Part shown: piece after piece, positions 52,302-61,509 of the stretch
Layout: each line of letters opens with the position of its first letter
Numbering within the stretch: the stretch's first letter is position 1
NCBI RefSeq assembly: GCF_001655675.1
Contig: NZ_LYRP01000001.1
Location: 1,116,001-1,180,000 of the forward strand
Direction of reading: 5' to 3'
Source of the DNA: Mangrovibacter phragmitis
GTDB lineage: Bacteria; Pseudomonadota; Gammaproteobacteria; Enterobacterales; Enterobacteriaceae
DNA: 64,000 nt
Notes under the pieces: generated by a model
What the model saw: only the letters and a program-made list of their open reading frames with translations
The model's database searches: none
Told to the model about the DNA's origin: nothing
Made by a program: the position numbers and the translations under genes

Positions 52302-53315
52302 ATGCAACCCATTGTGGGCCATTCACCGCAACCTCCCGGCGAACCGCCAGGCACGCCCAAAACCACACCACCAGCAGGTGAAGCACCGCTGTCCACCATA
52401 CAGCGTACGGTACTGGAACGCCTGATAACCCGCATCATTGCGCTGACTCAGCAGCAACCGGCGGAAGTGTGGGCCGCAATGAAACATGATCTTGGGTTGA
52501 ACAATTCAACGCCAATGCAGTCGCGCCACTTTCCGGCAGCAGAGCAAAACCTGAACCAACGCCTGTCAGGTGCCCAACAAACCCATGAAACACGCCAGGT
52601 TCTGCAACAACTGAATAATTTACTTTCGCAAGGCAATAACCGCCAGGCGGTGAGTAATTATATTCGCCAGGAGTTCGGCCATACGGCACTCAGCCAGCTC
52701 ACGCCAGATCAGTTAAAAACGGTGTTAACGGTATTACAAAAAGGCGAAATAGTTGTTCCGCAGCCAACCACGCGCCCGGCGACAGAGCGGCCGTTGTTAC
52801 CCGCAGAACACAGCACACTCAATCAACTGGTCAGCAAGCTTGCCGCCAGTTCGGGCGAATCTGTGAAAACCATTTGGCAGAATCTGGTCGAACTCAGTGG
52901 CGCCAAATCCAGCGAGCAAATTCCGGCACGCCAGTTCCCGCTGATGGTGACCTGGTTGCAGGCCAGAGAAACACTGGCTCATAACCCGGCGCCCACATTA
53001 CAGGTTATTCAGGCGGCGTTGAAGCAGCCGATGGAGCCCCACGAATTACAGCGGGTAAGTGACACACTGCAACAACAGTGGCAGGCCACCCCGCAGACAG
53101 TTTTAACCGCTGCACAGGTTCAGGAAGTGCTTAGCCAAATTTTCTTTATGCGTGCCGAGCGTGGAGCTGTGCAACTGGATGTCCGTAGTGTTCAGCCAAT
53201 TTATAACCCGTTTATTGCCTTCATATCCGAGCCGCTGAAAGTGATGTCAGCCCGCCCGGGGCTGACATTGTTCGCGCTGGTACTGGTTTTCTGTCTGGTG
53301 TTACTGTTGCTGTGA
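52302..53315 (+). CDS. flk: Flagellar-assembly regulator Flk
   Basis: Membrane-tethered protein which in Salmonella couples hook/rod assembly to late flagellar gene expression; 337 residues. It has a Pro-rich N-terminus, a long helical Gln/Leu-rich cytoplasmic region ([31 protein letters not shown]) and one C-terminal membrane helix ([17 protein letters not shown]). The end differs from E. coli but the architecture is the same. Confidence 0.92.
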
Positions 53316-53414
53316 TATTTTTCCTGGGAAGAACGCCTGCGCGGCAGGTAATGTTTTGCACGTTTAGCGCTTTTACTGCGGGTGAAAATGACTCCGGCAC
53401 ATATGTGAGGAAGG

Positions 53415-53447
53415 AATACCGCTGCCGGGACGTCCAGAAGCGGTATT
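53415..53447. terminator. Hairpin between flk and the autotransporter
   Basis: AATACCGCT (53415-53423) pairs with AGCGGTATT (53439-53447), between convergent genes and 10 nt beyond the autotransporter stop. T-runs are absent. Confidence 0.5.
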
Positions 53448-53457
53448 GAGTGGCTTA

Positions 53458-56187
53458 TCAGAACTGTTTGCGTACCTGCAAAATAACGGTCTGCCCCTGA
53501 TACTGTTGGCCAAGTTGCACGTTATAGCGGGCATTCAGCGTTAGCGTGTCGGATTTAACCAGAGTGGCGCCAACAGATAAATCCGCGGTATCTTCAACCG
53601 GTGAAGCACCAAAGGTCGTGAAGTTGGTTTCCCCCGCTGTTGCCGCTATGTAGCTTGCCGTCGTGCTACTGCGTTGCGGGTTATACTGATGTGTCCAGAC
53701 AGCCTGAATGAAGGGTACAACATCCCCAAAACCGGTCTGGAATGATTTATCCAGGCGGGCCCCCAGACCACTTCGAACCGCGTTATTGTGGCTGCCGCCT
53801 ACTGACAGAGCTGAGCCGTTATCGCTACTTTCTTTATAACTCCCGGTGGTTTGATAACTGTAATTCAGGCTGGCGAGTGGTGTCAGTGTGGTATTATCCG
53901 CCACGAGCAGCGGGTAACCAAACTCGGCATTAGTAACATATTGCTGACCATTAAACTTGCCCGACGCCCTGTCAGAGTAACCCGTCATACTCACATTACG
54001 CGTTGTGTCGTAACGTTGTTGAGTGACACTGGCAGACAGGTTCACATACCACGGGTCACCTGTGTAACTGGCATAACCAATTACTCCCCATGAATCGACA
54101 CCTGTCTTGTTACCGTAGAGATTGTCCTGGTTACGTACCGAGGTGTAGCTGTAAGTCAGTGCACCACCCATTCGCCAGGCCTCGCCAACAAGCCGGTCGC
54201 CCCCCAGTACCAGTCCGCCATAATTTGCTTTATAACCGCTGACATTATCCACCATTCCCTGATTAACATGGCCGCCAAATACCTGCCCCCATGCAGACCA
54301 GTCGTCAGGGGAATCACCCGCTGCCACACCGCTCATTCCATGTGATTGCGCCAGGCGTATTGAATCAACCCGCTGGCTAACCACGTTGACAGCGCCAAAA
54401 GTAGCCATTGACGCTGCATGACTGGCCCCGCTGTTCTGTACGGGTGAGAGCTGTTCACCCACTCTGTTTGCTTCCTGGGTTGAATCTATAGCCAGTGAGG
54501 CGTTATATAAATCCAGCAGACCTGGTGCAATCCCCGTATAATTCTGCAGCCCCCGCAATGAGGATAACGCATTGGCGGTAGTAGCAAACCCATTACTGGT
54601 ATTTCCCGGAGTGGAAGGATTGTCTCCTCCTCCTGGCGTTTGCGGTGTCGTGGGCGTTTGGTTACCAAGAGAAACCACCAGGTTACTGGTATTACCGGTA
54701 TCAACCACCGAACCAGTCGTTTCACCATCATAAGCCGTTATTACATAATTTAGTGAACTGGCATTAAAATTAGTGCCGCTTTTCGCTGCCGATACCACCA
54801 CGTACCGCTGGCCAGAGGCAAAGCGCCAGGCATTAAGCGACTTGAGTGACACCGTCGAACCACTGCCAATAGTAGCGGTGCCGCTGACAATCAAACGCCC
54901 ATACCCTGTATCGGTCGTGACACCGTTACTCACCGCTGAATCGCCAACGCCAAGCAATAATGTTGTAGCTGAACTCTGCGCGTAATTTCCGGTGATACTA
55001 ACAGGGTTGTTAACCTGCAATGTCTGCCCTGTATTTTGCAGGGTAAAGGTACCGACATTGACGTTATCATTGAGCAGTAAATTGCCAGAATTGAAATAGA
55101 GATCAGCGGCACTGTTTACGATAGTGCCCATACTGGCACTGTCAATGTTACCACTGGCACCAGTCAGGGTACCCTGGTTCGCACCACTTGCGCCGTTGAT
55201 GGTCAATCCGGTGCTGCTCAGGTTCGAAATGTCGCCAGCAATAAGGCCATTGTTAGTGACCGGCCCTATGATGCCAGTTGAGGTGTTATAAATAGCATAT
55301 CCACTGCCTGAGATGCTTCCATTGTTAACCAACGTCCCCAGGGTGCCGGTATTACTGATAGCATCCGCGGCTGTGATGGCGCTGTTGTTTATCAGGCTAC
55401 TGGTGGTGCCACTATTTTGAATACCTGCCGTCGTACCAGTTATGCTTCCCGTATTGGACAACGTGCCAATATTGCCAGCATTGCCGATACCAACCCCCCC
55501 GGTGATGACACTGTTATTAATCAGCGATGTAATAGCAGTATTGTTCTGAATCCCTGCCGTGGTCCCGGAAATTGTTCCAGTGGTATTATTCAGTGATGTA
55601 ATCGTGCCATTATTTTGCAGACCAACTGTCGTTCCGGTTATGCTTCCTGTATTGGACAAGGTGCCAATATCGCCGGTATTGCTGACACCAACTCCGCCGG
55701 TCATTATGCCACCATTACTGAGCGACATGATGTAAGTATTGTTTTGAATACCCGCAGTATTACCGGATATCGTACCCCCGGCATTATTGGTCAGTGATAA
55801 AATAGTACCGTTATTAAGAATCCCAACAGTGTCACTGAGCATCGCAGTATTATTAACCACGGCGAGACTATTGCTGGTGTTCTCCAGGGCGGCAAATGAT
55901 GTACCGTAAAGTAGTCCGCTGTTAGTTAATGTTTCGGCTAACGCGGATGCAGTTAAGGCCGCAGCACTTGATGAACTGAGCGTGCCATTACTGGTCAGTG
56001 TCATATTCCCACCAGACCAGTTAACGCACCCGGTGGAGCCGACTACAGTTACCGAACTACCAACATTTATACAAGCTGCATAGACTTCGGTGGTGGACAT
56101 CAACGCAATAGCTGACCCAAGAGACACCCCCAAAACCTTACGCCTGTCAAGCTGTGTATCGGCAGATTTATTAATACATTGTCCCAT
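53458..56187 (-). CDS. Repeat-rich autotransporter (type Va) adhesin-like protein
   Basis: A 909-residue surface protein. Signal peptide about 1-37 (RRKVLGVSLGSAIALMSTT, cleavage near VYA). The Asn/Thr/Gly/Ser-rich passenger (about 38-500) contains roughly 20-residue repeats of the form I-x-N-x-G-x-I-x-S-L-x-N at residues about 106-316, expected to fold as a beta-helix. A Pro/Gly linker lies around 505-530 (TPTTPQTPGGGDNPSTPGN). The C-terminal barrel (about 632-909) starts DDWSAWGQVFGGH and ends with Phe (VILQVRKQF), as outer-membrane barrels do. AAGG precedes the ATG. The two upstream genes encode sulfotransferase-like and glycosyltransferase-like proteins. Receptor unknown; not found at this site in E. 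coli. Confidence 0.9.
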   Translation of the reverse strand: MGQCINKSADTQLDRRKVLGVSLGSAIALMSTTEVYAACINVGSSVTVVGSTGCVNWSGGNMTLTSNGTLSSSSAAALTASALAETLTNSGLLYGTSFAALENTSNSLAVVNNTAMLSDTVGILNNGTILSLTNNAGGTISGNTAGIQNNTYIMSLSNGGIMTGGVGVSNTGDIGTLSNTGSITGTTVGLQNNGTITSLNNTTGTISGTTAGIQNNTAITSLINNSVITGGVGIGNAGNIGTLSNTGSITGTTAGIQNSGTTSSLINNSAITAADAISNTGTLGTLVNNGSISGSGYAIYNTSTGIIGPVTNNGLIAGDISNLSSTGLTINGASGANQGTLTGASGNIDSASMGTIVNSAADLYFNSGNLLLNDNVNVGTFTLQNTGQTLQVNNPVSITGNYAQSSATTLLLGVGDSAVSNGVTTDTGYGRLIVSGTATIGSGSTVSLKSLNAWRFASGQRYVVVSAAKSGTNFNASSLNYVITAYDGETTGSVVDTGNTSNLVVSLGNQTPTTPQTPGGGDNPSTPGNTSNGFATTANALSSLRGLQNYTGIAPGLLDLYNASLAIDSTQEANRVGEQLSPVQNSGASHAASMATFGAVNVVSQRVDSIRLAQSHGMSGVAAGDSPDDWSAWGQVFGGHVNQGMVDNVSGYKANYGGLVLGGDRLVGEAWRMGGALTYSYTSVRNQDNLYGNKTGVDSWGVIGYASYTGDPWYVNLSASVTQQRYDTTRNVSMTGYSDRASGKFNGQQYVTNAEFGYPLLVADNTTLTPLASLNYSYQTTGSYKESSDNGSALSVGGSHNNAVRSGLGARLDKSFQTGFGDVVPFIQAVWTHQYNPQRSSTTASYIAATAGETNFTTFGASPVEDTADLSVGATLVKSDTLTLNARYNVQLGQQYQGQTVILQVRKQF
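55441..55836 (-). repeat. Two 198-bp tandem units within the autotransporter gene
   Basis: Two 66-67-codon units follow one another, recognisable from SNTGSITGTT...GIQNN...TGGVG in each copy. Near-identical DNA at 55441 and 55639 is offset by exactly 198 bp. A third, partial unit follows towards the C-terminus. Each unit contains three of the shorter beta-helix repeats. Confidence 0.8.
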
Positions 56188-56519
56188 TCCATACCTTATT
56201 ATTATGTTATCTTTCTTAGTTTAGATGTATTGTATTTAACGCAAACTAATAACCACTTATTATTACATAATTCATCATAGCTGATATTCACGACAGCATG
56301 CGTAGTTTAAAGCACAGAACAAGTTTTTTCTCACTTCTCTCACTTCTCTCACTTAACTAAAATTTGCGATAAGATTTTTCCAACCATTGAACATAATTAG
56401 CCAAAAAACAATAATGACACATTATAATTATGGGTTTATTGCTATAGCCAATCTACCTGATTAATCTGTGGCAGAAGGATTAACCAGGTAAAAATAATCA
56501 AGACTACAAGTTCAGGGGA
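56188..56519. promoter_or_regulatory. AT-rich upstream region of the autotransporter
   Basis: This 332-nt gap after the glycosyltransferase-like gene indicates a separate promoter for the autotransporter. It is strongly AT-rich. A TATGAT on the minus strand near 56273-56278 could be a -10, without a good -35. A 9-bp tandem repeat lies further upstream. Confidence 0.5.
56328..56354. repeat. 9-bp tandem repeat, about 3 copies
   Basis: CTCTCACTT is repeated at 56337-56345 and 56346-56354, with a near-copy (TTCTCACTT) at 56328-56336. It lies 141-167 nt upstream of the autotransporter ATG, where copy-number change could alter promoter spacing. Confidence 0.75.
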
Positions 56520-57728
56520 TTAGTGCTTTTCGCTCATGTTCATAGAGGAAGGTGCTGCCATATCAGCCTTACCCTTCAATTCTTTTAAAGCAGCGGCAAC
56601 ATTTTGCAGAACGGTTTCCCATTGCCCGGGCACAGGCTGGCGGAACAAGCGCATTCCCGGATACCAGGGTGAATCGTCACGTTGTATTAGCCAGCGCCAG
56701 TCATTCAGGAAAGGTAGCAGTACCCAGGCCGGGCGCCCAAGCGCACCAGCCAGATGAACCGGCGATGAGTCTACAGACACCAGGGTATCCACGATGCTCA
56801 GGATGGCGGCTGTATCATCAAAATCATCAATTTCGCTACTCAACGACAACAGCGACATACCAGGTGGTGGTGTGGTGGCCTGCCCTGCCGCAGGCCCTTT
56901 CTGCAGTGCCAGAAAGGTAATCCCTTCCTGAGCTAATGGAGCCAGGTCAGCCAGTGCTATCGAGCGGCGCTTATCATTGGCATGCGTGGGGCTCCCGGCC
57001 CACACCAACCCCACTAACGGACGTGGCAGGCCTGCAAACCGCAATCGCCATTTTTCCACACGCTCAGGATCAGCAAATAAATAAGGTACTCTTCCCGGCA
57101 GATGCGACAGTTGCAAACCAAGCGCCGCAGGCAGACTCATCAGCTCACAGTGCAAGTCGAAAGGCGGAGGAAGCGTTCCCCTGACTATCAACTGGTCATA
57201 CCCACGGACACTTCGCGCCAGGTTAAAGGCTTCCGGGTTCACTTCCAGTACAATATGAGCACCACTGCGTTCCTGAGCCTGCTCAACCAGCCGCAAAAAC
57301 TGGAAGGTATCGCCATAACCTTGCTCATCGTGGATCAACAATGTCTTTCCTTTGACAGGCTGCCCTTCCCAGCGCGGTTTTTGCATATGCCGTTCGAACA
57401 TGCGGGTATGGTCAAGCTTGTAGCGAAAGCGGTATTCTCGCCAGCCACGCGTAAACTCGCCCTGTAGTAACAGCATCTCAGACAGGTCAAACCGTGCACT
57501 CATATCGCCCGGCACAACCTGTACAATCATGTCCATCACTTGAGTAGCTGCGACAAATTTACCCTGCTGGCGCAATGCCATGTACAACTGACGCCATAAG
57601 GCAACAGGAGCGGTGCCAGAAGACAGTGCCTGACACAACACCCTCTCTGCCTCGGCCCAGCATTCAGCTTTCAGGAGTACATCAACCTGCTGCCAGAGTG
57701 CGCTAAGATCTCTCTGTTCCGGGTTCAT
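56520..57728 (-). CDS. TPR protein with glycosyltransferase-like domain
   Basis: A 402-residue cytoplasmic protein. The first ~110 residues are TPR-like helices (AECWAEAERVLCQALSSGTA, GKFVAATQVMDMIVQVVPGD). From about residue 120 there is a GT-B fold domain of the kind found in TPR-GT9/GT41-like proteins: LLIHDEQGYGDTFQFLRLVE, LVGLVWAGSPTHANDKRRSI, VDSSPVHLAGALGRPAWVLLP and DSPWYPGMRLFRQ, where the late Ser/His/Gly segment resembles the nucleotide-sugar site. Sugar and acceptor are unknown. The ATG overlaps the sulfotransferase stop (ATGA), so the two are coupled. Its place beside an autotransporter suggests that the passenger is the acceptor, which is inference. Confidence 0.75.
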   Translation of the reverse strand: MNPEQRDLSALWQQVDVLLKAECWAEAERVLCQALSSGTAPVALWRQLYMALRQQGKFVAATQVMDMIVQVVPGDMSARFDLSEMLLLQGEFTRGWREYRFRYKLDHTRMFERHMQKPRWEGQPVKGKTLLIHDEQGYGDTFQFLRLVEQAQERSGAHIVLEVNPEAFNLARSVRGYDQLIVRGTLPPPFDLHCELMSLPAALGLQLSHLPGRVPYLFADPERVEKWRLRFAGLPRPLVGLVWAGSPTHANDKRRSIALADLAPLAQEGITFLALQKGPAAGQATTPPPGMSLLSLSSEIDDFDDTAAILSIVDTLVSVDSSPVHLAGALGRPAWVLLPFLNDWRWLIQRDDSPWYPGMRLFRQPVPGQWETVLQNVAAALKELKGKADMAAPSSMNMSEKH

Positions 57729-59818
57729 CTTTTTTCAACACCGAGCACATCCAGCAAAGGACCAAGGTGGGCAGCATGCCTGTGCCATCGCCCAATGGAA
57801 GAGGTGTAGATGGGCTGGCGCACCTGAGCCATACTTGCAGTACGTACAATACGCCGGGTTTTGTGGAAGTGCAGACAAGCGTCATTCCAGGGAAGATCGA
57901 TGAAATCAATCAGACGCCGCGCCTGGCCATCCAGATCATCGACCACCGCTTCATAATCAACTTCGATAAAGCATTCAGGCGGTAATACCTGACAGAAGTG
58001 AGCCATCAGCGCCTGGTAGTCAAGATAAAACTGCCCCAGTTCATCCAGTTGGTAAGTAAATAACTGTTCCCCGGAAAAAAGCTTGCTGTAACAGGACAGG
58101 CACGTATCCACAGGATCACGACGGCAGTGAATGATACGTGCGCCAGGCATCAGTAGTGGAATCAGGCCGGCATAGAGGAAGTTTCCCGGCAGTTTGTCTA
58201 CCACTCGCAGTGCATCTGGTGCCAGATGGCTGATCTGTTGAAGATAATCGGTGCCAATATTAAGAAAATGATTACGGCTCCAGTTACCCACATCCTCAGG
58301 GAAACGGCCTGCCTGTGCCACTACCCGCCCCAACACGCCTGACTCTCCTGCGCCGTAGACATCGGGGTGTGACGCAAGAATCTGTTCAACCAGGGTGGTG
58401 CCGGAGCGGGGCATGCCGATAATAAAAACAGGCCGCCCGGAAACCACGCCTGCGCCTCTGAACCGTGCCATTAATGCCGGGGTAAAAACCTCAGCAATAC
58501 TTTTCATCCATACGCTAATCTGTTTGGCATCATAATTAAAAGTGGCACGCTTAAAAGCATTACCCTGGTCAAGATGGAAAAATGCACGATCGGAATCCTT
58601 GATATCCAGATACGCTTTGCCAAGCGAAAAATGCAGCAATATTTGTTCATGAATGGGCAGTACCGGCTCACGCGCCAACGCATTTTCCATAACCTCAATA
58701 TCAGGGTCGCCTGCCTGGTAGAATTTATTATCGCAACACGCTGCCAGAACCCGCGGTGAATCAGGAAAACGCTTCAATGCCAGTTGAAACCCGGCAGACG
58801 CGGCATCCATGTCGCCAGTCTCCATCAGTAAAACTGCCCGCGCAACAAGCGCTTCTTCGGCAACCGTACCCGGTAACTCCGCCGCCTGGTTATAGGCCTG
58901 CTCAGCTTCTTCATACCGCCCAAGGCCCTGCAAGGCTGTCCCCAGAACCTTATGCGTATTCGCATTACCCGCTGCAATAGCCAGGGACTTGCGCGCAACT
59001 GCAACGGCTTCCTCATAACGCTCATCAACAATCAAAATTTGGGCAAGTGCGGTAAGCCCTCCCACATGTTGTGGCGCAAACTCCAGCAGTGAATTCACCC
59101 AGTGTCTGGCATCAGCGTAACGCATGCGCGATAACTCAATATTCGCCAGGTTTAAATACGCATCCGCAAGTTGCGGGTTGATATCTATCGCCCGCCGCGC
59201 AGAAGCCACAGCCTCATCAATACAACCAAGGTCACTCAACAATAAAGTGAGATTACTGTACACTTCCGCATACTCGGGACGCAGTGATAAAGCTCGCTGG
59301 TAACTTTCCTGAGCACGGTGCAAATAGCCCAGCCGCTGGCAGGTATTAGCCAGGTTATTGTGCGCTTGAGCATTATCCGGTTGCAAAGATGTAACGTATT
59401 CCAGGCACTCCAGGCTTTCCGTGAATTTCCCGGCCTCCTGCAAAATGATGCCAAGATTACTCCATGCCACAATCAGTTCAGGCTCTTGCTCTACTGCAAT
59501 ACGAGCAGCATGTTCGGCCTCTACCAGCAAACCTTTCTGGCGATAAAGCTCCGCCAGATTGCTAAATATTATTGCCGGAGCATCCGGTGAATGGCAGGCC
59601 TTATGTATATAATCAATAGCCTTATCCAGCATACCGTAGGCATGCATCATAAGCCCCAGCAGATTAAGGGCATCGTGTTGTAATGGTGCGACTTCCAGCA
59701 CCCGCAGGCAAAGCTGCTCCGCCTGTGCGGCCTGCCCGGCATTCCAGTGAGCATTCGCCAGTTCCAGAGCCTGAAGAACCGTCAACTGCTGCGAATCAAG
59801 AGGGTTGCTATTACTCAA
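57725..59818 (-). CDS. TPR-containing sulfotransferase
   Basis: A 697-residue cytoplasmic protein. Residues about 15-440 form roughly ten or more TPR repeats (for example AWSNLGIILQEAGKFTESLE, YSNLTLLLSDLGCIDEAV). A C-terminal PAPS-dependent sulfotransferase domain begins near 461: the 5'-phosphosulfate loop VFIIGMPRSGTTLVEQILAS at about 464-483 and the 3'-phosphate site ARIIHCRRDPVDTCLSCY near 560-577 are intact. The start is TTG (59818), with GAGGA 5-6 nt upstream; the next Met is about 56 codons in. First gene of the island. Substrate unknown; TPR domains in such enzymes usually bind protein acceptors. Confidence 0.85.
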   Translation of the reverse strand: MSNSNPLDSQQLTVLQALELANAHWNAGQAAQAEQLCLRVLEVAPLQHDALNLLGLMMHAYGMLDKAIDYIHKACHSPDAPAIIFSNLAELYRQKGLLVEAEHAARIAVEQEPELIVAWSNLGIILQEAGKFTESLECLEYVTSLQPDNAQAHNNLANTCQRLGYLHRAQESYQRALSLRPEYAEVYSNLTLLLSDLGCIDEAVASARRAIDINPQLADAYLNLANIELSRMRYADARHWVNSLLEFAPQHVGGLTALAQILIVDERYEEAVAVARKSLAIAAGNANTHKVLGTALQGLGRYEEAEQAYNQAAELPGTVAEEALVARAVLLMETGDMDAASAGFQLALKRFPDSPRVLAACCDNKFYQAGDPDIEVMENALAREPVLPIHEQILLHFSLGKAYLDIKDSDRAFFHLDQGNAFKRATFNYDAKQISVWMKSIAEVFTPALMARFRGAGVVSGRPVFIIGMPRSGTTLVEQILASHPDVYGAGESGVLGRVVAQAGRFPEDVGNWSRNHFLNIGTDYLQQISHLAPDALRVVDKLPGNFLYAGLIPLLMPGARIIHCRRDPVDTCLSCYSKLFSGEQLFTYQLDELGQFYLDYQALMAHFCQVLPPECFIEVDYEAVVDDLDGQARRLIDFIDLPWNDACLHFHKTRRIVRTASMAQVRQPIYTSSIGRWHRHAAHLGPLLDVLGVEKR

Positions 59819-59834
59819 AATATTCCTCGGACAT
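59811..59834 (-). other. Seven-codon leader ORF overlapping the sulfotransferase start
   Basis: ATG at 59834 opens MSEEYFE and stops with TAA at 59811-59813, overlapping the TTG start at 59818 in another frame. The Shine-Dalgarno of the large gene lies inside it. It could couple or limit initiation, or be chance. Confidence 0.3.
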
Positions 59835-60234
59835 AAAAGGCACAGTGGCTGGATTGTGTCTGCAAGCAGATCAGGCTTTTACCTGAAAGCTCCAACGTGG
59901 CACACAATCTGAATTGCATGCCATCCCGGATGGCATTCATTAATTATTAGTAATATCTTCGTCATCAGAATAGGTGACGCAAAAATGGAGTGCAACACCT
60001 GTTTATTTAGTTTGAAAGCCCGCAGGCAATCTCTTATTTACATGTATGAGAAATGCTTATCGCTGTTTAACTGGCTATTAATAATAGTTAAAGCAAAAGG
60101 CGGTATTTATCGCAGCCAGAATAAAAGGAGAGAAAATATTTTAGCGCGGAGCTGGTTGTTCAGTGGAAGGCAGGTGGTTGTGCGAGAGTATGTTGCAGAG
60201 AAAACAATACAGAGTATAAAAATAGCAAGACTGC
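59835..60234. other. Upstream region of the sulfotransferase gene
   Basis: About 400 AT-rich nt between the fabB terminator and the island. It should carry the promoter of the sulfotransferase/glycosyltransferase pair. I found no convincing -35/-10 pair; the plus-strand ORF at 59985-60281 shows no family features and is probably not a gene. Confidence 0.45.
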
Positions 60235-60266
60235 AAAAAAATAAAGGGGCAGTCACCCGCCCCTTA
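60235..60266 (-). terminator. Intrinsic terminator of fabB
   Basis: AAGGGGC (60244-60250) pairs with GCCCCTT (60259-60265), followed on the minus strand by ATTTTTTT. It lies 23 nt after the fabB stop. Confidence 0.88.
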
Positions 60267-60288
60267 TGCAAAAGACATTAAAACGCCT

Positions 60289-61509
60289 TTATTTGCTGTA
60301 TTTACGCATTACCAGTGTGGCGTTGGTGCCGCCGAACCCGAAGCTGTTGGACATCACTGTTGTCAGGTCACGTTCAGTCGGTTCAGTAACGATATTCATG
60401 CCTTCAGCCAGCGGATCACGCTCGTCAATGTTAATGCTTGGCGCGATAAAACCGTGTTCCAGCATCAGCAGGCTGTAAATTGCTTCCTGAACCCCGGCAG
60501 CACCCAGTGAGTGGCCGGTCATGGCCTTAGTTGCAGATAGCGCTGGCGTATTTTCGCCAAACACTTCACGGATCGCACCCAGTTCTTTTACATCACCCAC
60601 TGGTGTAGACGTACCATGAGTATTCAGGTAATCGACAGGTGTATCCAGACCTTCCATTGCCATTCTCATGCAACGCGCGGCACCTTCACCAGAAGGCGCA
60701 ACCATATCTGCACCATCAGACGTTGCGCCATAACCAACGATTTCTGCATAAATATGAGCGCCACGAGCCAGAGCATGCTCCAGTTCTTCAACCACGACCA
60801 TGCCGCCGCCGCCAGCGATAACAAAGCCGTCGCGATGTGCGTCATAAGTACGGGAAGCTTTTTCCGGGGTTTCATTGTATTTGGTAGACAGCGCGCCCAT
60901 GGCATCAAACTCACAGGCCAGTTCCCAGCACAACTCTTCACCACCACCAGCGAACACGATATCTTGCTTACCAAGCTGAATTTGCTCAACCGCATTGCCA
61001 ATACAGTGTGCTGATGTTGCACAGGCGGAGCTGATAGAGTAGTTCACGCCATGAATTTTAAATGGCGTAGCCAGGCAGGCAGAAACACCTGAGGCCATAG
61101 CTTTGGTAACAACGTAGGGGCCAACAGCTTTCAGACCACGAGGGCTGCGCATGGCATCTGCGCCAAAGACCTGAAATTTTGGCGAACCGCCACCAGAACC
61201 GGCAATCAGCCCAACGCGTGGGTTGTTCTGGTAAACTTCGTCAGCCAGTTTGGCATCTTTAATTGCCTCATCCATGGACAAGTAAGCATAAACAGAGGCG
61301 TCACTCATAAAGCGAACGACTTTGCGATCGATTAAGCCTGTGGTATCCAGCTTGACATTACCCCATACGTGGCTACGCATACCGGAATCTTTCAGTTCTT
61401 GAGAGAAAGTGATCCCTGAGCGCCCTTCACGCAGAGATGCCAGGACTTCCTGCTGGTTATTACCGATGCTGGAAACGATACCCAGGCCAGTAATCACTGC
61501 ACGTTTCAT
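60289..61509 (-). CDS. fabB: Beta-ketoacyl-ACP synthase I
   Basis: Condensing enzyme of fatty acid elongation, essential for unsaturated fatty acids; 406 residues. The Cys-His-His triad is visible in [37 protein letters not shown] and [12 protein letters not shown]. The C-terminus [15 protein letters not shown] is typical. Divergent from mnmC. Confidence 0.98.

Follow-up and report, generated by a model that had tools for sequence, protein, structure and literature searches.

A TPR-sulfotransferase and a coupled TPR glycosyltransferase-like protein as putative modifiers of an adjoining autotransporter in Mangrovibacter phragmitis

Dedicated modification of an autotransporter in the cytoplasm is a known kind of system, and here we compare with the closest described examples three genes of Mangrovibacter phragmitis, a plant-associated type of bacterium. 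The genes encode a tetratricopeptide repeat (TPR) sulfotransferase (ST), a TPR protein with a GT9-like glycosyltransferase domain (GT) and an autotransporter (AT). They lie on contig NZ_LYRP01000001.1 of assembly GCF_001655675.1, within a stretch of 64,000 nucleotides (positions 1,116,001 to 1,180,000, forward strand) that we call the window; positions below are those of the window, its genome is G000, and L-numbers denote compared loci. In Caulobacter crescentus, the TPR part of the flagellin O-glycosyltransferase FlmG binds flagellins, and the glycosyltransferase part alone fails to restore modification (PMC7591256). By architecture FlmG resembles the present system, with an N-terminal substrate TPR array and a C-terminal glycosyltransferase that act in the cytoplasm before export; it differs in its acceptor (flagellin), its donor (pseudaminic acid) and in that no sulfotransferase is described in the accessible part of that paper (PMC7591256). 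In the window, however, the long array (residues 14-452) sits on ST, and the array on GT is short. The BAHT enzymes (TibC with TibA, AAH with AIDA-I) are likewise dedicated autotransporter glycosyltransferases related to heptosyltransferases, although an iron-finger is described for TibC and TPRs go unmentioned in the accessible part of the source (PMC4358343). The window GT does have a TPR part, and the iron-finger motif is not present in it, its three cysteines (23, 32 and 194) forming no CxxC. We know of no sulfotransferase in BAHT operons. A bacterial sulfotransferase encoded with its tyrosine-sulfated secreted substrate occurs in Xanthomonas oryzae (RaxST and RaxX; PMC6637879). RaxST is reportedly small and without TPR, and RaxX is said to be a type I secreted peptide with a tyrosine acceptor. 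To our knowledge, sulfation of bacterial surface proteins is hardly known outside RaxX. Unlike human TPST1/TPST2 and OGT, the two kinds of module are here joined in a single bacterial protein.

The same operon is present, judging by its position between relB genes and its gene order, as Ent638_4265-4267 on plasmid pENT638-1 of Enterobacter sp. 638 (L126) (PMC2869309). As far as the accessible text goes, the 2010 paper on that strain describes the AT, which lies between toxin-antitoxin genes and is placed among putative root-adhesion genes, as a hemagglutinin, and names its two neighbors only as TPR-2 proteins, for assembly (PMC2869309); the word sulfotransferase is absent from the main text of this genome paper and of the follow-up transcriptome paper (PMC4301647). 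A literature search, judged by titles and the beginnings of abstracts and with preprints and most subscription journals outside its range, found no sulfated autotransporter and no study of TPR-sulfotransferases.

Comparative evidence supports the link between the enzymes and the AT well, and ST and GT are probably cytoplasmic enzymes dedicated to the adjoining AT. Before export, the unfolded passenger would be held in the OGT-like TPR superhelix of ST, a capture step that we also think reasonably probable. The coupled GT, without a long array of its own, would add sugar to the Ser/Thr-rich repeats, and the AT is very likely its acceptor. The TPST-fold domain would transfer sulfate from 3'-phosphoadenosine 5'-phosphosulfate (PAPS) to the passenger, the AT being a likely acceptor of ST as well, and type V export would then bring the modified passenger to the outside as an adhesin with negative charge. 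The genes with their domains, conserved catalytic motifs, purifying selection, the recurrent linkage and a TPR subfamily common to two enzyme types are observed; docking and activity are inferred, as are the acceptor, the donor sugar, the order of the steps and the function. Relative to the known kind of system, the new elements would be the presence of a sulfotransferase and a capture module that can be exchanged.

Linkage of the enzyme pair to an autotransporter

An earlier note on this DNA had placed three minus-strand genes here, the first two coupled by a 4-nt overlap, and all three are found beside flk in the read order ST, GT, AT (Table 1), with the overlap formed by ATGA at 57725-57728. 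The complete trio occurs in ten loci. In addition to the window, these are M. plantisponsor (L015), M. yixingensis (L013, where the contig ends 277 aa into the AT), an Erwinia-labelled genome in which the trio occupies a different genomic site (L014), and plasmids of Kluyvera ascorbata, Lelliottia amnigena and Enterobacter sp. 638. In Pseudomonas putida 31800 the order is AT-ST-GT, in Thalassospira marina AT and ST are followed by a hydrolase and GT on the opposite strand, and in the proteobacterium L255, which was met in the predictive test described below, the AT is divergent. The operon changes place and replicon, yet stays together. A neighborhood search for enzyme pairs lacking an autotransporter, suggested in the earlier note, bore the link out: all ten ST+GT pairs of the ST's TPR subfamily have an AT nearby (counting the cut copy of L013), as do six fusions. 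Among Enterobacteriaceae, GT was detected at 1e-20 in 20 of 392 genomes; the ten copies with at least 57% identity are all AT-linked, and the other ten (36-38%) are lone TPR-GT proteins of ~500 aa.

The fusions come from six genomes in two genera of Enterobacteriaceae (L027, L028, L029, L030, L084 and L031), in which a homologous AT, 33-38% identical to the window AT in the passenger, is followed by one TPR-GT protein of ~660 aa. Its array is 41-51% identical to the TPR part of ST and its glycosyltransferase 56-65% identical to the window GT, and it has no sulfotransferase half (four intact copies). At the junction (L028 and L031), homology passes from ST residue 252 or 261 over ~15-20 residues to GT residue 8 or 13, which is what a deletion within an ST-GT operon would leave. 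Because the fusions keep an ST-type array on a GT without the sulfotransferase, the array of ST may be able to serve GT once the sulfotransferase is lost. Frameshifts or stops are seen in L027, L030 and L084, all of one genus, and may represent decay, phase variation or assembly error.

In total, an AT is nearby in 16 of 17 subfamily loci (11 with ST and six TPR-GT fusions, cut or broken copies counted), and GT is also present in 10 of the 11 ST loci. Since the 17 loci were found by ST, TPR or GT searches, the AT neighbors were not selected for. Over TPR residues 1-262, the STs of the window and of Ent638 share 47-54% identity with those of P. putida and Thalassospira and with both fusion types, and 25-35% with the arrays of the remaining STs and TPR-GTs in the comparison. 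For the catalytic domain of ST, identity is 64% with P. putida, 60% with Thalassospira, 51-53% with the STs L018, L202 and L204 that are not linked to an AT (53% for L202 and L204), and 51% with the AT-linked L203. Maximum-likelihood analysis of 36 arrays places the 13 subfamily rows (nine ST, four TPR-GT) on one side of a 100/100 branch; the rows were picked by similarity, so the grouping is expected, and the result is that two enzyme types are mixed within the group. It is therefore the autotransporter, and not the catalytic domain, that the type of TPR array tracks. The suggestion that the array presents the acceptor is strengthened, as one subfamily is joined to two catalytic domains in the context of an AT at those 16 loci.

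As a predictive test, the TPR part alone was searched against 398 genomes of the phylum at 1e-30, and ten genomes matched, the window's included. Two contained new close arrays (54% and 49%), of which L255 has the trio and L254 has neither AT nor GT. The other seven matched at 32-36%, and of 12 loci examined only L259 has an AT, beside an ST. This AT (L259:8200-14376), next to the TPR-sulfotransferase, is 2058 aa long and carries an OmpA domain after its autotransporter barrel.

The same comparisons bear on the possibility that the enzymes act elsewhere, on lipopolysaccharide or on another surface protein such as a second AT, and that the adjoining AT is a hitch-hiker on a mobile element. GT belongs near heptosyltransferases, the operon is carried on plasmids, and the window genome does have a second AT, 45% identical, on contig C12 without neighboring enzymes, all of which would suit such a reading. 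We nevertheless consider it improbable, because linkage to the AT is kept in Enterobacteriaceae, Pseudomonas and an alphaproteobacterium despite the reordering in P. putida and the divergent AT of L255, and because the fusion proteins retain the ST-type array beside an AT.

Catalytic domains and the position of the sulfate

The sulfotransferase with a long TPR array that had been read from the letters was borne out by Pfam, with Sulfotransfer_3 at 1.4e-43 plus many TPR families. In a structure model with a predicted local distance difference test (pLDDT) score of 86.9, an OGT-like TPR superhelix stands on a tyrosylprotein-sulfotransferase fold. The superhelix with asparagine ladder, a feature of OGT, is present in both model and sequence, and the TPST fold of the catalytic domain was recovered by structure search, in which the Foldseek and VIA lists were mostly TPR proteins that may have crowded out other sulfotransferase folds. 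The nearest solved sequences to the domain are TPSTs (2.3e-12). By alignment to TPST, the PAPS-binding and catalytic residues (the 5'-phosphosulfate-binding motif, the Glu base, the Lys, and the Arg and Ser of the 3'-phosphate-binding motif) are all in the window ST, with roles that we take over from TPST2, and are conserved in 104-107 family members (R471 98%, E492 99%, K542 96%, R567 100%, S575 95%). The window genome encodes adenosine 5'-phosphosulfate (APS) kinase, for PAPS. Relative to M. plantisponsor, the ratio of nonsynonymous to synonymous substitution rates (dN/dS) is 0.11 for ST, 0.13 for GT and 0.12 for AT, compared with 0.06 for flk and 0.03 for fabB, indicating functional genes under purifying selection that evolve faster than these housekeeping genes.

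Conservation of this kind also bears on whether both TPR proteins could be export chaperones or assembly factors that serve the AT and carry vestigial enzyme domains. An array with an Asn ladder is able to bind unfolded chains, as in OGT. A chaperone role is put forward in passing for Ent638_4265-4266 in the accessible text of the genome paper (PMC2869309). With the motifs of the window ST intact, R471, E492, K542 and R567 at 96-100% across the family and dN/dS at ~0.1, we regard vestigial enzymes as very improbable.

For GT, the earlier description as a TPR protein with a GT-B glycosyltransferase-like domain holds in part. TPR_14 and Glyco_transf_9 both match GT slightly below the Pfam cut-offs, giving the FlmG-like order of TPR then GT9-like domain, and Glyco_transf_9 is found at E <= 0.1 in 50 of 52 members of the GT family alignment (best 3.1e-9); the TPR part proved only short, and the GT-B fold has a weak basis. 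The GT41 catalytic model is not among the Pfam matches of GT and its family, Glyco_transf_9 appearing instead, and no NCBIfam family was matched at E <= 0.001, in a collection that presumably includes a BAHT heptosyltransferase model. A PDB search with the GT sequence returned mainly designed TPR proteins, and a profile of the 52 members found heptosyltransferase I as its best match, at E 0.029.

The AT ends in a barrel that covers the full profile (PF03797, 1-255, 1.2e-55), and its passenger repeats are visible in both sequence and alignment, the N-terminal signal being judged by eye. As had been noticed, the passenger is rich in Asn, Thr, Ser and Gly (residues 41-539: Ser+Thr 29%, Asn 13%, Gly 15%). 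In order to consider where sulfate might be placed, we aligned twelve ATs, including seven passengers of ST systems (six enterobacterial and one from P. putida). Within the repeat region (window residues 40-400), no Tyr is kept in all seven, and the Kluyvera passenger has Phe at 297 and 300. Tyr 402, 429, 462, 481 and 550 are kept in seven of seven, and equally in four ATs without an adjoining ST; as the four include the second AT of the window genome, on which ST could act in trans, they do not prove an ST-free acceptor. Tyr makes up 1.5-2.7% of the ST-system passengers versus 4.0-4.6% of the ST-less ones, and Asp/Glu make up 2.5-5.8% of the former versus 10.7-10.8% (genus g23) and 4.9% (g73) of the latter. 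Charge compensation, in which ST-less passengers would be more acidic, fits genus g23 and was rejected because g73, at 4.9%, does not follow.

These data can be set against a reading in which ST sulfates passenger tyrosines directly, as animal TPST and Xanthomonas RaxST do, and GT independently glycosylates Ser/Thr. The likeness of the catalytic domain to TPST favors tyrosine; however, the lack of a repeat-region Tyr common to the seven passengers, the equal retention of the five downstream tyrosines where ST does not adjoin, and the low Asp/Glu and Tyr content of ST-system passengers make this reading unlikely. The lack of a conserved Tyr in the repeats is a mild argument for sulfate on glycan or Ser/Thr, a position toward which the sequences lean slightly, with tyrosine in any form given not quite an even chance. 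Within the subfamily, ST without GT is seen at 1 of 11 loci and GT without ST at 6 of 16, and the greater frequency of ST-less GTs would suit an ST acting after GT, in small numbers from related genomes. Outside the subfamily, L017, L128, L203 and L259 have ST and AT and no GT in the examined stretch, so sulfation need not be on the sugar added by this GT. Of the idea of an adhesin glycosylated and then sulfated, the linkage of the enzymes to the AT thus stands; the order of glycosylation before sulfation, the sugar and the sulfate site are not supported to that degree.

If the passenger is sulfated, the adhesin would display charged, host-like groups, and these could determine how it attaches to plants or to other surfaces; the three genes would also be a genetically tractable system. 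The shared TPR module offers a testable rule for how cytoplasmic modifying enzymes choose an export substrate, namely that the array is swapped while the chemistry is kept.

The wider ST and GT families

Of 369 genomes sampled from the class, 81 have an ST-domain match at 1e-25; the best locus was taken from 60 of the 81, and 57 of these loci were scored (L184, L199 and L219 were dropped as ST was lost in the picking of open reading frames, ORFs). Within two ORFs of ST we find a TonB-dependent receptor at 12 loci, flagellin at two, an AT at one and none of these at 42, so that only 15 of the 57 have one of the three beside the TPR-ST. Surface-protein ORFs account for 17 of 223 adjacent ORFs compared with 4 of 342 others (Fisher p 1.2e-4, near relatives not thinned). 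The hidden Markov models (HMMs) were self-built from seeds and can miss members, as happened with the RefSeq-annotated AT of L128. On plasmids, where 17 of 31 ST-bearing records were inspected, an AT is beside ST in five (the three enterobacterial plasmids, Thalassospira and Pacificitalea), a TonB receptor is directly beside it in two (Novosphingobium pentaromativorans and Pseudoalteromonas), and flagellin (Paroceanicella), a porin (Cereibacter), nearby type I secretion genes (Sulfitobacter) and a cadherin adhesin with export genes and cysC (Comamonas, described below) are found once each. Five of the 17 are without a surface gene directly beside ST, among them Asticcacaulis, where a TonB receptor is three genes off, and one record (Novosphingobium RL4) is unannotated.

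Several observations weigh against ST and GT being dedicated to the AT in the manner proposed. At the level of the class, the single AT among 57 ST loci led us to reject the general claim that TPR-STs serve autotransporters, and the self-built HMM detected no AT barrel at any of 39 loci with more distant GTs (29 from the class and 10, at 36-38% identity, from Enterobacteriaceae). The eleventh subfamily ST, L254 (50% identical), has no AT and no GT on 13.9 kb to the contig end. Among the fusion loci, the AT is broken in L027, L030 and L084, and the TPR-GT in L030 and L084. The structure model of GT, built from five sequences, is too poor for a fold (pLDDT 51), and its GT-B fold consequently rests on weak GT9 similarity. 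The AT may be transcribed separately, given the 332-nt gap after GT, and the absence of a conserved repeat-region Tyr sits poorly with a TPST-like catalyst.

Overall, a minority of the sampled loci seem to tie TPR-STs to various kinds of exported protein, and the AT linkage marks one branch. It is conceivable, though we would put it somewhat below an even chance, that TPR-STs are a widespread bacterial machinery in which an OGT-type array captures proteins on their way to the cell surface and a TPST-type catalyst sulfates them (autotransporters, type I adhesins encoded with an APS kinase in Comamonas, flagellins and TonB receptors), and that in the AT branch the array has been exchanged between ST and GT, acceptor choice and chemistry evolving separately. 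This would give a possible function to a large set of annotated TPR-sulfotransferases, which are unstudied as far as the literature search shows.

Individual loci of these families have contexts of their own. On the Comamonas endophytica plasmid L131 (NZ_CP106882.1), a 13-kb cadherin adhesin gene, a TPR-sulfotransferase gene, and genes for TolC, an ABC transporter, HlyD and the APS kinase cysC stand in a row, an arrangement suggesting that a type I adhesin is sulfated with PAPS from a dedicated source. In L032-L034, from another genus of Enterobacteriaceae, the gene for an 896-aa TPR-ST overlaps by 4 nt the end of a gene for a giant protein, which in L032 carries cadherin and Big domains. TPR-sulfotransferase genes adjoin flagellin genes in L226, L211 and L218. 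Among the distant GTs, a flagellin gene is on the same stretch in L096, L097, L107 and L117, a further likeness to FlmG, and lies within three ORFs of GT only in L117. In a Sphingomonas metagenome-assembled genome (L018:1847-6963), a TPR-sulfotransferase gene directly precedes two genes that we take to be cysD and cysN, a context of PAPS supply.

Features of the locus

The coordinates of the locus are collected in Table 1. The plus-strand neighbor is flk (NCBIfam), and we take the other flank to be fabB and the order in E. coli to be flk-yfcJ-fabB. The closest named relatives at the locus are M. plantisponsor (ST 86-87% identical) and M. yixingensis (ST 85%). The ST gene starts with TTG here and likewise in six relatives; GAGGAA stands before it in the window and in five of the six, GGGGAA in the sixth; the segment marked in the earlier note ends at 59834, just beyond the GAGGAA box. 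Rfam found nothing at the gathering threshold in 53000-60400, and promoter-like sites in the region did not exceed shuffles (9 versus 8.7). A blastn search with the ST+GT DNA had no match, at the DNA level, in 5,426 complete E. coli genomes.

Table 1. Coordinates of the genes and their parts in the window
Feature	Positions	Strand	Basis
ST, TPR-sulfotransferase, 697 aa, TTG start	57725..59818	-	domains, relatives' starts, model pLDDT 86.9
Probable ribosome-binding site GAGGAA of ST gene	59823..59828	-	kept upstream of TTG in relatives
ST TPR superhelix, residues 14-452, asparagine ladder N87, N121, N155, N189, N223	58463..59779	-	
ST TPR part common to AT-linked TPR-GT fusions, residues 1-262	59033..59818	-	identities, tree, junctions
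Sulfotransferase catalytic domain, residues 457-697; R471-S472-G473, E492, K542, R567, S575 kept	57728..58450	-	
GT, short TPR part and GT9-like domain, 402 aa, start overlapping ST stop	56520..57728	-	
GT putative catalytic domain, residues 96-382	56583..57443	-	family alignment A3, invariant Q, D, H, R, W, Y positions
GT-AT gap, 332 nt	56188..56519	.	no Rfam match at the gathering threshold and no predicted terminator-like site
AT, type Va autotransporter, 909 aa	53458..56187	-	barrel domain match
AT signal region with DRRKVLG motif, boundary by eye	56077..56187	-	motif in relatives
AT passenger, Asn/Thr/Ser/Gly-rich solenoid-type repeats, residues 40-535	54583..56070	-	
AT beta-barrel, residues 632-889	53521..54294	-	PF03797 1.2e-55

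The N-termini of the ATs in the window and in L124-L126, L014 and L015 carry a twin-arginine-like RRKVLG motif, a possible signal for twin-arginine translocation (Tat), that is absent from P. putida and from the ST-less systems; Tat export of the AT, which the motif had suggested, was set aside as the P. putida AT does not have it. An alpha/beta-hydrolase gene, often lipoprotein-like by eye, recurs near ATs (L016:13182-14093, L031:5421-6260, L027:7237-8175, L127:10081-10953, L203:10136-10948 and L232:9089-9967), and on contig C12 a homologue 47% identical to that of P. putida adjoins the second AT of the window genome.

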